This document shows, piece after piece, positions 20,947 through 37,228 of a DNA stretch of 39,075 bases. Position numbers and translations under genes: made by a program. The DNA lies in contig JAGQGU010000034.1 of the NCBI GenBank assembly GCA_020432165.1, positions 1-39,075 of the forward strand, read 5' to 3'. Below the pieces are notes generated by a model, which ran no database searches, had not been told where the DNA came from, and worked only from the letters and a program-made list of their open reading frames with translations. Numbering within the stretch: the first letter of the stretch is position 1; each line of letters starts with the position of its first letter. This DNA is from Thermomicrobiales bacterium. Lineage in GTDB: Bacteria; Chloroflexota; Chloroflexia; Thermomicrobiales; UBA6265.

Positions 20947-21109
20947 GTAGACCCGGGCCTCGCAAGGCGCTTGCGCCTGCGAGTTGCCCGGGTTCCAGTA
21001 TTCCGCATATGTCAAATCCGCCATCCGCTCCGAAATTGGACACCCTGCAGCCTCATGAACCCGGGCAACTCAATCGCGACGTGCCGTCGCTCTTGAGGCC
21101 CGAGTCTAC
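20947..21109. repeat. BIME-like double-hairpin repeat, copy 2
   Basis: The first half (20947-20996) begins GTAGACCCGGGCCTC and folds via CTCGC/GCGAG and AGGCGC/GCGCCT. The second half (21057-21109) runs from GAACCCGGGCAACTC to GAGGCCCGAGTCTAC and is the inverse of the first. A 60-base spacer separates them. This repeat fills most of the gene-free stretch 20918-21255. Confidence 0.85.
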
Positions 21110-21255
21110 TTTCCGTCCGCGATATCCTCCCAGGTCATCTTGTGCACAGAGATGAGTAGACAACGCTACCAATCGTTCGGCTGACTCCTCACATACGTTC
21201 GGATTGACGGCGAGACCCGCACCATTCGCGGCCAGGGTGAACGACTGATCCCCGG

Positions 21256-28948: not shown

Positions 28949-28969
28949 CTCCGCCCCGAACGTCGCCTC

Positions 28970-29035
28970 GGGTTTTACACCCGGGATTGAGAGACCATTT
29001 TCACAATCAACGGACCCCGGCCGTGGCCTCCGGGT
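28970..29035. repeat. Hairpin-repeat unit, isolated copy
   Basis: The unit GGGTTTTACACCCGGG...GAGAGACCATTTTCAC...GGACCCCGG is one copy of the 61 bp unit of the tandem array at 29292-29478. Another truncated copy begins again at about 29032 and leads into the BIME-like element. It lies after the HAD genes. Confidence 0.6.
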
Positions 29036-29088
29036 TTTACACCATCTGTACCGAGAAGATACTCTGTAGAAAGGTCGCGCTGCGAAAG

Positions 29089-29250
29089 GTAGACCCAGGC
29101 CTCAAGAGCGACGTCCCGTCGCGATTGAGTTGCCTGGGTTCAAGTAGCCGCCAGCGAGCAATCCTGGAACAGGTGGCGGAGTTGACGCCCATCGAGTACT
29201 GGAACCCGGGCAACTCGCAGGCGCAAGCGCCTTGCGAGGCCCGAGTCTAC
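29089..29250. repeat. BIME-like double-hairpin repeat, copy 3 (inverted)
   Basis: This copy starts GTAGACCCAGGCCTC and ends GAGGCCCGAGTCTAC and is inverted relative to the other two. Its flank matches the reverse complement of copy 1 beyond the element (29041-29088 against about 171-229), so a longer unit of about 220 bases was duplicated. It is inserted inside the 61 bp repeat array. Confidence 0.85.
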
Positions 29251-29291
29251 GCTGTTGCGGCCCCATCGTTATCCATTTTCTCGGAACGAAT

Positions 29292-29478
29292 GGTTTTACA
29301 CCCGGGATTGAGAGACCATTTCATTTCCACAACCAACGGACTCCGGACGTAGCCCCGGGTTTTACACCCGGGGTTGAGAGACCATCTTTGCAACCAATGG
29401 ACCCCGGACGTAGCCCCGGGTTTTACACCCGGGGTTGAGGGACCATCTCCGCAACCAACGCACCTCGGACGGAACCCG
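29292..29478. repeat. 61 bp tandem repeat of CCCCGGG-TTTTACA-CCCGGGG hairpins
   Basis: Three consecutive units start at about 29292, 29357 and 29418. Each carries a perfect 7 bp stem with a TTTTACA loop (for example 29353-29373) and a conserved segment ending GGAC. With the units at 28970 and 29032 it makes a composite array. The remaining 29479-29651 carries a sequence like TCATGCTGAGCAGCGCGAAG, a common dispersed bacterial intergenic motif. No gene is visible in 28949-29651. Confidence 0.8.
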
Positions 29479-29651
29479 GGATTGACTCCCCGAGTCGAGT
29501 GACACGCGTCATGCTGAGCAGCGCGAAGCATCTCGATCTGTCGCGGCCCTCAGGATGACGGCTCATCCCTTCTGTCTATCGTGATCATCCCCTAAAATCA
29601 TCTGCAGCATTACGAGTCTGTTCATACCTAACTCTAAAAGGAGCTCACCAC

Positions 29652-30827: not shown

Positions 30828-30948
30828 GCCGTAGCCCCTTCCGAGTATTCAGCTTCGGACGTAGCCCCGTGGTTGATCCACAGGGTTCATGTCACGACTC
30901 TGGTACACGGTTACCTGGAACATGACAGGTGTTCAACCCAAAAGAAAA

Positions 30949-34433: not shown

Positions 34434-34547
34434 CAATCGGGGTTGGGGAGGAGAGAAATCAAGAAGCGTTGGTCTCACTTCTCAATACATGTATCCTATC
34501 GCCGCAGCCTGAACGTACGCTGAGACATTCCTGAGCATTTGCTGAAT

Positions 34548-34814
34548 TCAGTCACGAATCTCAAATGCGTTCACAACCGCCCGTTGCAGGCTCGGATGCC
34601 TGTCCATCAGCTCATCCATACTCACCCGCAAAAACGCGGCCAGCTGGATCAATTCCAGTGGCGAAAGCGTGATGGTAAGGAAGTCAATGCTGAGTTGCAC
34701 CTGATCCCCCTCTCCCAGCGTATCTTGTGGTTTATCAGGCACTGTCAGGGTCGTACTGAGCCCGGTCTCCGGCCAGATCATATCCAGCAGTTCGATTGTT
34801 GGTTTGTTGTTCAT
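34548..34814 (-). CDS. Hypothetical small protein
   Basis: This 88-residue protein begins MNNKPT at 34814 with GGGAGG upstream; a longer start five codons upstream is less likely. It contains helical LSPLELIQLAAFLRVSMDEL followed by MDRHPSLQRAVVNAFE and an acidic, hydrophilic start. No membrane helix, no cysteine and no known family. It is divergent from the gene at 34896. Confidence 0.6.
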   Translation of the reverse strand: MNNKPTIELLDMIWPETGLSTTLTVPDKPQDTLGEGDQVQLSIDFLTITLSPLELIQLAAFLRVSMDELMDRHPSLQRAVVNAFEIRD

Positions 34815-34895
34815 CGTTTTGCCTCCCATTCACGATGTAATTGTGCCACCTTCTATAATGAACGTCAGATCACCAGCGATGCCTCGGGAGCGATC

Positions 34896-35465
34896 ATGAC
34901 CACTGCCTATCAGCCTTTGCCTACCGATCCGCGCACGGTGCTGCGAGATATCTCCGCCAGCGCGCGTAATTCTCCGGAGATCGCGGCATTGCGCCTGGCA
35001 GTACTACGGCTGGATATTCCCGACGCCATCGTGCAGATCGATGCTGTGCGGCAGGATGACACCGCCATCGCGGTGAAAGCGACCATCGGTCTTCCTGGTG
35101 GTGCACGTCATTCCGCTATTGCTGCTCACGATGTGACAGGTGATTCCGGTTGGGCGATTCAGTATGCCGCCACCGAAGCCGAGGCGATCGCACGGGCTCT
35201 CGATGGCCTTGGAATCTCTCTGCAGAAGCAGATCGGTGCCGCAGCATCGCCCGCCAAATCCCAAACCCAGCCAAATCATGCTCCGAGCAAGACAAATGCA
35301 GACGACCACCTGCCTGAATATTCCTGGAACGCTTTTTGGCGGGAAGCGCATACCCGTGGGATTAGTCGGGAAGATGTCGAACGCGCCCTTGGCCGCTCTA
35401 TACAAGAGGTAGCGCCGCAGGAAGCGGTAATTGCGCTCAAGTCCTCGGGGCTATGGACCTCCTGA
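34896..35465 (+). CDS. Hypothetical protein with C-terminal helical module
   Basis: This 189-residue protein starts MTTAYQPLPTDPRT with GGGAG 7 bases upstream. Residues 20-120 contain alternating strands and helices; a Ser/Ala/Pro-rich linker (about 122-140) leads to a C-terminal segment with SWNAFWREAHTRGISREDVE that resembles short helical modules attached to unrelated proteins. I do not recognise its function. A longer in-frame extension runs into the divergent gene and is rejected. Confidence 0.65.
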   Translation: MTTAYQPLPTDPRTVLRDISASARNSPEIAALRLAVLRLDIPDAIVQIDAVRQDDTAIAVKATIGLPGGARHSAIAAHDVTGDSGWAIQYAATEAEAIARALDGLGISLQKQIGAAASPAKSQTQPNHAPSKTNADDHLPEYSWNAFWREAHTRGISREDVERALGRSIQEVAPQEAVIALKSSGLWTS

Positions 35466-35561
35466 GCGGGGATCTAGGCGCTGGTTGTTGTTGTGCATGC
35501 TGTCATTGCAGCACGCCTGCCAGATTACCATCCTTACTTTATCGACTAATTGTCAATTGAT

Positions 35562-35711
35562 GTACGGACGCGATTATCAATCTCGCAATGAGTCAGATAC
35601 ACGGACACTGCGTACATTCATATTTGATTTCTATGTACGTACAGAATCAAATCAATGAAATAGATCATCATTGAATTGAATATCGGATGATATTTCCCGT
35701 ACGGACACTGC
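35562..35711. other. AT-rich spacer with spaced short repeats and a palindrome
   Basis: CGGACACTGC occurs at 35602-35611 and again at 35702-35711, exactly 100 bases apart; GTACGGAC is found at 35562 and 35699. Between them lies a near-palindrome around TGTACGTACA (35625-35649). The composition is more AT-rich than its surroundings. No gene is visible. Confidence 0.5.
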
Positions 35712-35774
35712 ATCTTGTGCCGAAATGGCAGTGAACGTACTCTTGTTACATCTTATCCACTCCGCCAGACTGGT

Positions 35775-35909
35775 CTTGCACGGGAACGCCTGTCCATCCC
35801 GCAAGCTGTGACAGGTCCCGGCCATCGGTCCCCCGCCCGATGCATGATCGATGCCAGCACATTCCCGCGATGTGGCATCAGCCAGAGGTAGATGTGCCCG
35901 TACACATCT
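35775..35909. ncRNA. Candidate structured RNA (stem-loops with possible pseudoknot)
   Basis: The stretch holds a CTTG-CGGGA/TCCCG-CAAG stem (35775-35805), whose loop CCTGTC (35789-35794) matches GACAGG at 35810-35815; CATCG/CGATG (35823-35842); GATGCC-ACAT/ATGT-GGCATC (35850-35879); and AGATGTG/CACATCT (35890-35909). These are in the 500-base gap before the surface protein gene, with no convincing ORF. It could be a leader RNA or a dispersed structured repeat; strand cannot be settled by eye. Confidence 0.35.
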
Positions 35910-35965
35910 CCCTTCGTGGCGCTTACATACCGCGGTTTCGTCTGGTTCGGAGGGGATAGACTGCT

Positions 35966-37228
35966 ATGGCCATTAATCACACTTCGGGTGCGGCGGGATC
36001 ATCGTCCCGCACCGCCCAGCAATTTCTCAAAGGCTCGCCATTTCGGGTGTTGGCCTCGTTTACGATTCTCACCACGCTCTTCGCGCTTGTGCTGAATGCT
36101 GCCGCGCAGGATTCCGGTACACCATCGGCCTCGCCGCAGGCAACGCCATCGGCAGCCTTTCTGCGCATCGAGCTGCCGTTGAAGGAAGAGAACGAAAGCG
36201 ATCTCGGTGGCAAGGTCACACTCTATGAGTTCGGTGATCAGACCATCGTCGAGTTCGCTGCCGAGGGTGCCGGTGGAAATCATCCGGCAGCGATCATCAG
36301 CGGCACCTGTGCCGAACCAACCAACATGGCGCGGTACGATCTCAACTCTGTATCCAATACCGGTGAGAGTTCCACCACTATTGATGTGGCGTTAGATGAC
36401 CTCCTCGCCTCGGATCATATTGTTCAAATCTTCATGAGCCCTGACGAAGCCGATACGGCCATCGCCTGTGCCACGATCGAAGGTGAGCCTGGTTTGGATA
36501 CCGGGGCCACGCCTGAAGCCAGCCCGCAGGCGAGCCCGGCCGCGTCACCCGCAGCCACCGATGTTGAGGATCTCACCGGTGTTGGCGGTGAAACTACGGC
36601 AAACACACTCACTGTCGATCTCCAAGACTGGAGCGATACGGGTGTGACTGGTACGGCAATCCTGACCGATAACGGCACCAGCACCACCGTCTCCATTCAG
36701 CTGGATGGCGATGCAGTTACCGGCGGTCACACGGTACATATTCACAATGGCACGTGCGCATCACCAGGATCGGCGACCTACACACTTACCCCGATCGGTA
36801 CCGATGGCAGCAGCGTTTCCACCGTGAATCTGAAGCTGGCAACACTGACGAATGGTGCCTATTTCATCAATGTCCATCCGGATGAGGAGCATTGGGAAGA
36901 GTGGATGGTTTGCGGCAATATCACAGCCGCCGCTGGCACGCTGACAGGTACCACGACAACGACGACTACGCAGACCGGCACCGGTGGTAATCAGACCGGC
37001 GATGGTTCCTCTGGTGGCAATACCACCACCAGCACAACCACTGCCCAGGCGGGTAGTTTCCCGCAGCAGGTGGGTGTGGGCGATGGCCTCCGTTGGCCCA
37101 GCGAAACACGCGATGCTGTCGTCTGGGCAGTAGCCATTAGCGGTGTGGTGCTGCTGACAACAGGTATGTTCATTCGACATGCAGAAAAGTCTGGCAAGTC
37201 GCCACGATTCACCCGACTGGGTCTGTAG
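35966..37228 (+). CDS. Secreted surface protein with two CHRD-like repeats and C-terminal anchor
   Basis: This 420-residue protein has an N-terminal signal-like helix (about 27-48) and a C-terminal membrane helix followed by a basic tail, as in cell-wall or membrane-anchored surface proteins. Two repeated domains (about 66-170 and 205-312) share the pattern H..I..GTC..P....Y.L..V; the second contains HTVHIHNGTCASPG, typical of CHRD/superoxide-dismutase-like folds. Low-complexity Ser/Thr/Pro/Ala linkers separate the domains. Possible roles are adhesion or metal binding. The ATG has GGAGG upstream; it is a single gene followed by a terminator. Confidence 0.75.
   Translation: MAINHTSGAAGSSSRTAQQFLKGSPFRVLASFTILTTLFALVLNAAAQDSGTPSASPQATPSAAFLRIELPLKEENESDLGGKVTLYEFGDQTIVEFAAEGAGGNHPAAIISGTCAEPTNMARYDLNSVSNTGESSTTIDVALDDLLASDHIVQIFMSPDEADTAIACATIEGEPGLDTGATPEASPQASPAASPAATDVEDLTGVGGETTANTLTVDLQDWSDTGVTGTAILTDNGTSTTVSIQLDGDAVTGGHTVHIHNGTCASPGSATYTLTPIGTDGSSVSTVNLKLATLTNGAYFINVHPDEEHWEEWMVCGNITAAAGTLTGTTTTTTTQTGTGGNQTGDGSSGGNTTTSTTTAQAGSFPQQVGVGDGLRWPSETRDAVVWAVAISGVVLLTTGMFIRHAEKSGKSPRFTRLGL

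Follow-up and report, generated by a model that had tools for sequence, protein, structure and literature searches.

A conserved array of CCCGC-tipped hairpins, very likely a structured RNA leader, before a CHRD-domain gene in Thermomicrobiales

We find that the intergenic region before a CHRD-domain gene of a Thermomicrobiales bacterium very likely encodes a conserved structured RNA leader, which occurs in one full copy in the genome and is new as a motif; its transcription and its mechanism we infer from sequence. The reading that we favour, with a probability of roughly 0.55, is a cis-acting 5' leader RNA of the CHRD-gene mRNA, in which the CCCGC tips of several hairpins would dock a partner and control translation or mRNA stability. 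A preliminary description of the region had proposed an undescribed structured RNA, and that proposal is supported by covariation, by a common loop motif and by the absence of an Rfam match.

Results

The locus and its relatives

The window, i.e., the whole stretch of DNA that was analysed, comprises 39,075 nucleotides (G000:C21:1-39075) of a 3.2-Mb draft genome in 105 contigs, here called G000. The element lies in a 500-base gap between a 308-aa gene (34539-35465), for which no Pfam family was matched, and a 420-aa open reading frame on the + strand (35966-37228) that contains a CHRD domain (Pfam PF07452, E 4.9e-05, 24.6 bits vs a cut-off of 24.1). The product of the latter is a probable surface protein, this location being predicted.

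Two of the genomes used for comparison, G003 and G002, belong to the same genus as G000, and G002 is the more distant of the two. In a DNA search of 101 genomes the gap of G003 is 76% identical over 35556-35952 (E 7.7e-67) and G001 comes next (E 5.6e-17); most of the other matches listed at E ≤ 1 are short and chance-like. The G001 locus is interrupted by a contig end within box A, a conserved box upstream of the hairpins (see below). The order of upstream gene, gap and CHRD gene recurs in G002, G023 and G013, while in G009 box A and the CHRD gene lie on one contig and a match to the upstream gene is absent. The hairpin array itself sits between box A and the CHRD gene in five genomes (G000, G003, G002, G023 and G013), a conserved position directly before one gene that is characteristic of a cis-acting leader. 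As a separate observation, several relatives also have the 308-aa gene in this position, ahead of the leader and the CHRD gene.

Four hairpins and a possible pseudoknot

Four hairpins are found within 35789-35909 on the + strand, and all four appear in the minimum-energy fold of 35775-35909, so the four consecutive stems of the preliminary description are indeed there. H1 (35789-35794/35810-35815) has the stem CCUGUC/GACAGG and the loop CAUCCCGCAAGCUGU; its outer pair, judged by eye, changes from C-G to U-A in G003. H2 (35823-35828/35837-35842) pairs CAUCGG with CCGAUG around the loop UCCCCCGC, and 2/6 of its pairs are changed on both sides among three genomes. H3 (35850-35856/35873-35879) pairs GAUGCCA with UGGCAUC around a loop that contains UUCCCGCG, two of its pairs becoming G-U in G002. 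H4 (35890-35896/35903-35909) consists of AGAUGUG/CACAUCU with 4/7 pairs changed on both sides; its loop is CCCGUA in G000 and CCCGCA in both G003 and G002.

The structure is supported because of the comparison with relatives, the energy of the single sequence being unremarkable: for the + strand z is -1.20 and 22/200 shuffles fold as well, and for the - strand the corresponding values are -1.77 and 9/200. In the minimum-energy fold of a longer 295-nt stretch of G000, H2 and H3 are absent.

The region had also been described as holding a pseudoknot, made by a match of CCTGTC in a loop with GACAGG downstream. The match is present and at its simplest is the stem of H1; it turns into a loop-to-downstream match only if CUUGC-AC-GGGA (35775-35785) pairs with UCCCGCAAG (35797-35805), an alternative stem that spans 35775-35805 on the + strand. 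GCACGGG can then pair with the CCCGC loop of H1, which makes H1 a pseudoknot. The letters GCACGG are identical in G000, G003 and G002. By eye, most of the alternative stem is seen in G003 (UUGC/GCAA and GGG/CCC), and in G002 it takes the form CGC/GCG and GG/CC, with one pair changed from T-A to C-G. On the other hand, the alternative stem competes with a CGGG/CCCG extension of H1. A pseudoknot at H1, with one compensatory pair seen by eye, is possible and plausible as had been proposed, but is rivalled by the extended H1 stem.

Conservation and covariation

Identity between G000 and G003 is uneven along the gap. It is complete in box A (33/33 in 35716-35748) and around H3 (36/36 in 35849-35884), nearly so just before the CHRD gene (26/27 in 35932-35958), intermediate in 35775-35822 (41/48) and 35556-35715 (108/160), and lowest in 35466-35555 (41/90) and 35910-35931 (13/22). 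For comparison, at codons with identical amino acids the two genomes share the third position at 141/268 sites in the CHRD gene and at 98/178 in the phosphatase gene. The conservation of box A and H3 exceeds that of synonymous sites.

Counted by eye, G000 and G003 differ by seven stem changes that leave all 26 pairs intact, with three two-sided changes. Of 1,000,000 trials with random transitions, 20,535 preserved every pair and 420 had the two-sided changes as well. The computed count for the same two sequences, which puts the outer H1 pair outside the structure, gives 2/25 pairs changed on both sides with 137/500 shuffles as high; the two-sequence covariation stays within its shuffles because two sequences are too few. 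A covariance model built from G000 and G003 only, however, finds G002 in 72,710 bases with 44.5 bits (E 2.2e-08) vs 14.9 bits (E 0.069) for the next match. In the alignment of all three, which leans towards the structure because it was fitted to that of the covariance model, 71/71 counted pair cells are standard and 6/25 pairs are changed on both sides, a count as high being found in 1 to 3 of 500 shuffles depending on the measure; six slid controls on this alignment were 19-41% paired and had 0 pairs changed on both sides. Covariation had been named in the preliminary description as a check on a structured RNA, and it is present: compensatory stem changes, as looked for in a cis-acting leader, are found in three genomes, two alone remaining within the shuffles.

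Several details qualify the individual stems. For 4/5 H1 pairs the G002 row of the three-genome alignment consists of gaps, and the H1 counterpart in G002 (GAGCG/CGCTC) was matched by eye only. On the structure-fitted alignment RNAalifold recovers H2, H3 and H4, together with a GGC/GCC stem enclosing H2-H3, and does not recover H1; on a longer sequence-based alignment it recovers H1, H2 and H3, with H4 replaced by long-range pairs. Each of the three one-sided pair changes yields a G-U pair on the + strand, where the - strand would have A-C. Conserved stretches are also found outside the stems.

The covariance models give no significant match to G013 (9.7 bits, E 0.33, H2-H3 only), G023 or G009, so outside the genus the leaders are recognised as alike by position, box A and the loop motif. 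In a stricter order-wide model search of 61 genomes even G002 was missed.

A repeated loop motif

The loops of H1-H4 carry a nearly identical CCCGC tip that recurs every 25-37 nt. In leader coordinates CCCGC stands at 53, 87 and 119 in G000 (with CCCGU at 152), at 54, 90, 122 and 154 in G003, at 56, 118 and 152 in G002 (with CUCGC at 89), at 54, 91 and 116 in G023, and at 48, 82 and 111 in G013. Those at 56 in G002 and 54 in G023 sit in stems below the strength threshold, and one more CCCGC outside the array, at 183 in G003 and at 65 in G023, sits in a weak stem in both cases. The observed count of CCCGC in strong loops was reached by 0, 0, 2, 7 and 0 of 3000 shuffles for G000, G003, G002, G023 and G013 respectively. 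When the motif was fixed and its flanks were shuffled, 13/23 tested sites had P ≤ 0.05.

Because CCCGC had been chosen after looking, the test was repeated over all pentamers, with four leaders from three genera (G000 and G002 from one genus, G023, and G013). CCCGC was the commonest strong-loop pentamer, with 10 occurrences vs a shuffled maximum of 5, and 0/1000 shuffled sets reached it; with G009 added, again 0/1000 reached the CCCGC count. G009 itself has no CCCGC hairpin, although box A and the stem at the ribosome-binding site are kept, and the syntenic pieces examined from G027, G018 and G005 have no CCCGC-hairpin cluster.

Taken singly, strong CCCGC hairpins number 10 on the + strand and 3 on the - strand of the whole window, H1-H3 being three of them. 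A spaced triple of CCCGC alone has 3 matches in the genome, two of them outside the window, vs 11 for the reversed control. Other clusters of CCCGC hairpins were seen at four loci (L032, L052, L068 and L083), the one at L052 overlapping long frames.

One full copy, and rejected identities

The suggestion that the same sequence might be a dispersed family found no support: a single full copy was found, and its place before one gene is fixed. A search of G000 with the 500-base region gave one match at E ≤ 0.001; apart from this full copy, the own-genome matches at E ≤ 1 are partial ones of 17-23 bases only. Among 32 genomes of the family, model R2 finds below E 0.02 only G000, G003 and G002, which are its own sources; the next match, in G022 (E 0.0218), overlaps long frames.

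A minus-strand frame across the element had been described as not protein-like while keeping many codons. The former part is right, since the frame is open for 101 codons yet has no Pfam family above the cut-off (the best, HTH_36 with E 0.061, is below it), and the protein family that would have spoken for coding was not found. Nor is the frame conserved: in the alignment with G003 it is shifted by gaps of 1, 1 and 4 bases, which lie at 35830, 35887 and 35908. A small open reading frame on the plus strand was likewise rejected, as the plus frames of G000 and G003 part, by eye, at the 1-base gap at 35887. We also rejected a known Rfam RNA: the window has no match at gathering score, and none of the 7 matches up to E 5 in 35400-36050 was accepted.

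Repeats of other kinds occur elsewhere in the window. A tandem array with a 61-nt unit and a CCCGGGTTTTACACCCGGG core occupies 29292-29471 (2.9 copies) within a region of 28954-29485 and 30853-30887, a related copy being found at 28954 and a weaker one at 30853. Between 29030-29250 on the one hand and 40-365 and 20947-21115 on the other, segments of 40-119 nt show 80-96% complementarity, and these three regions possibly form a repeat family.

Box A, the upstream region and the ribosome-binding site

Upstream of the array, on the + strand, lies a region (35556-35715) with TGTACG-type repeats at 35560-35569, 35601-35611, 35633-35642 and 35701-35711. Its direct and inverted repeats include ACGGACACTGC, which occurs twice, 100 apart, and GTACGGACACTGC/GCAGTGAACGTAC. 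Similar repeat blocks are found upstream in G003 and, by eye, in G001. The repeats may serve as a multi-site operator, which would make this an upstream control region.

Box A follows at 35715-35748 on the + strand and overlaps an imperfect palindrome, GTGCC...GGCA. It is probably a promoter, with a candidate -35 element TTGTGC (35715-35720) and -10 element TACTCT (35738-35743) chosen by eye; a simple sigma-70 scan did not mark it and marked one site, at 35550-35577, with 0.8 expected. The exact box TGGCAnTGAACGTACTCTTG is present in 5/32 family genomes in one copy each. With up to 3 mismatches there are 16 matches in 14/32 genomes vs 12 for the reversed control, so that only the 5 exact matches are informative; box A as the promoter of a regulon was rejected for the same nearness to the control. 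The box of G013 has 3 mismatches and is counted by position only. A contig scan for box A together with CCCGC returned 17 stretches, four of which (G003, G013, G023 and G002) were taken as true and the other 13, from other phyla, as chance.

Next to the start codon, at 35932-35965 on the + strand, are a conserved CCGCGGTTTCGTCTGGTTCGG element and GGAGGGG (35949-35955), probably the ribosome-binding site. In G000 a short stem of 4 pairs, seen by eye, surrounds this site (GUCU 35940-35943 with AGAC 35958-35961). In four relatives a GAC..GTC-type stem holds the ribosome-binding site in its loop, as seen in the computed folds for G009 and G013 and by eye for G002 and G023; in G002, G009 and G023 an outer GTCAT/ATGAC stem includes the start codon. 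No stem around the site was found in G003. Pairing of the hairpin loops with the ribosome-binding site of their own leader is weakly above background, with 4/18 loops in the best 5% of leader windows. A simple consensus scan of 35400-36100 found no terminator-like site. Separately, a long strong hairpin, partly different in sequence, follows the array region ahead of the start codon in both G023 and G009 (L057 1373-1408 on the minus strand, and G009 leader positions 137-173 at L062).

Discussion

From the G-U pairs on the + strand, box A upstream, the lack of a terminator-like site in the scan and the stems at the ribosome-binding site, taken together, a 5' leader emerges as the most likely reading. 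Transcription would start just past box A, at about 35750, and would continue through the leader into the CHRD gene. The leader is predicted, with support from the comparison of relatives, to form three to four hairpins in succession, whose CCCGC tips are almost identical. These tips could be docking sites for an RNA-binding protein that recognises several hairpins together; alternatively they may dock a G-rich strand, which could be the leader's own GCACGGG, the G-rich ribosome-binding site or another RNA. Either kind of docking would alter how accessible the ribosome-binding site is, or how stable the mRNA.

The array could instead be a separate small RNA gene, for which the CHRD gene is a mere neighbour. 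Box A would then drive an RNA of about 160-220 nt that acts as LhrC does, its C-rich loops pairing with G-rich ribosome-binding sites on other mRNAs. The promoter-like box of its own fits this explanation, as does the likeness of the repeated C-rich loops to both the redundant UCCC sites of LhrC (PMC4132741) and the C-rich loops of 6C RNA (PMC4046766). However, the simple scan found no terminator-like site, the conservation extends towards the start codon (26/27 in 35932-35958), the place before the same gene is fixed, and the trailing GC of CCCGC would misfit a GGAGG target. We regard a separate gene as unlikely.

Less likely still is a riboswitch-like aptamer, in which the GGC/GCC-enclosed H2-H3 and the GCACGGG-CCCGC pseudoknot would form a pocket for a metabolite or ion that controls the ribosome-binding site. 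RNAalifold places the closing stem around H2-H3 in three genomes, the conserved stretches outside the stems would suit a pocket, and the possible pseudoknot has one compensatory pair; but the closing stem has no covariation because it is invariant in all three genomes, only three genomes align well, no Rfam family matches, and a repeated loop motif is generally unusual for aptamers.

It is very unlikely that the inverted repeats act as DNA, as protein-binding or cruciform sites, even though the adjoining upstream region is rich in operator-like TGTACG-type repeats. The letters common across genera sit in loops, the array lies between a promoter-like box and a start codon, and the one-sided changes, small in number, all (3/3) give G-U on one strand, which pairing in DNA would not favour. 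That GC-rich intergenic DNA merely folds by composition is highly improbable: the single-sequence z-scores (-1.2 and -1.8), the spaced triple whose genome count does not exceed that of its control (3 vs 11) and the strong single CCCGC hairpins elsewhere in the window would agree with chance, but the slid controls at 0 against the observed covariation, the motif-blind loop test (0/1000) and a conservation above that of synonymous sites argue against it.

To return to the cis-acting leader with docking tips, a more specific version of it, which we consider rather unlikely, is a new class of mRNA leader: an in-cis docking array that would be read by a probably oligomeric Thermomicrobiales RNA-binding protein, while the GCACGGG strand would compete internally and switch the tips on and off. 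A repeated loop pentamer as the main sequence shared across genera suggests that a specific partner recognises it, one that could be fished out, and the leader would offer a way to study how a probable surface protein is controlled after transcription in this lineage. Among the matches listed in our literature searches, which covered open-licence papers with subscription journals mostly missing, there was no description of a CCCGC-hairpin leader and none of regulatory RNA in the Thermomicrobiales lineage ('thermomicrobi' had zero occurrences).

Comparison with known RNAs

By analogy, the element appears most like RNAs that offer several equal loops, such as LhrC, 6C RNA and the targets of ANTAR proteins. 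Sponge RNAs of the CsrB/RsmZ type are separate small RNAs with hairpin arrays and a repeated GGA loop motif; a hairpin array with one repeated loop motif is common to both, whereas ours has CCCGC loops and a leader position.

6C RNA of Actinomycetales is described as two stem-loops, each typically with six C (PMC4046766). Both RNAs thus have stem-loops with C-rich stretches, but the leader has three to four loops, mostly with three to five C followed by GC, and occurs in another phylum; the Rfam model of 6C RNA has no gathering-score match in the window and is absent from the 7 matches up to E 5 in 35400-36050. LhrC of Listeria is a trans-acting small RNA with five copies, a terminator and a UCCC motif, and binds a G-rich strand through several redundant C-rich sites, two of them in loops (PMC4132741). 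Several redundant C-rich loop sites are found in both, whereas the leader is one full copy before a gene, has a CCCGC motif and showed no terminator-like site in the scan.

ANTAR targets are tandem hairpins in a 5' leader with a common loop signature that is read by one protein; each loop is a hexanucleotide in which position 1 is A and position 4 is G (PMC3369931). Here the loops vary in length and no loop of G000 has both A1 and G4, the only hexaloop, CCCGUA of H4, having G at 4 and C at 1; nor did the simple scan of 35400-36100 find an alternative intrinsic terminator. The genome of G000 has one ANTAR-domain match. What the two have in common is the tandem hairpins, the common loop signature and, probably, the position in a 5' leader.
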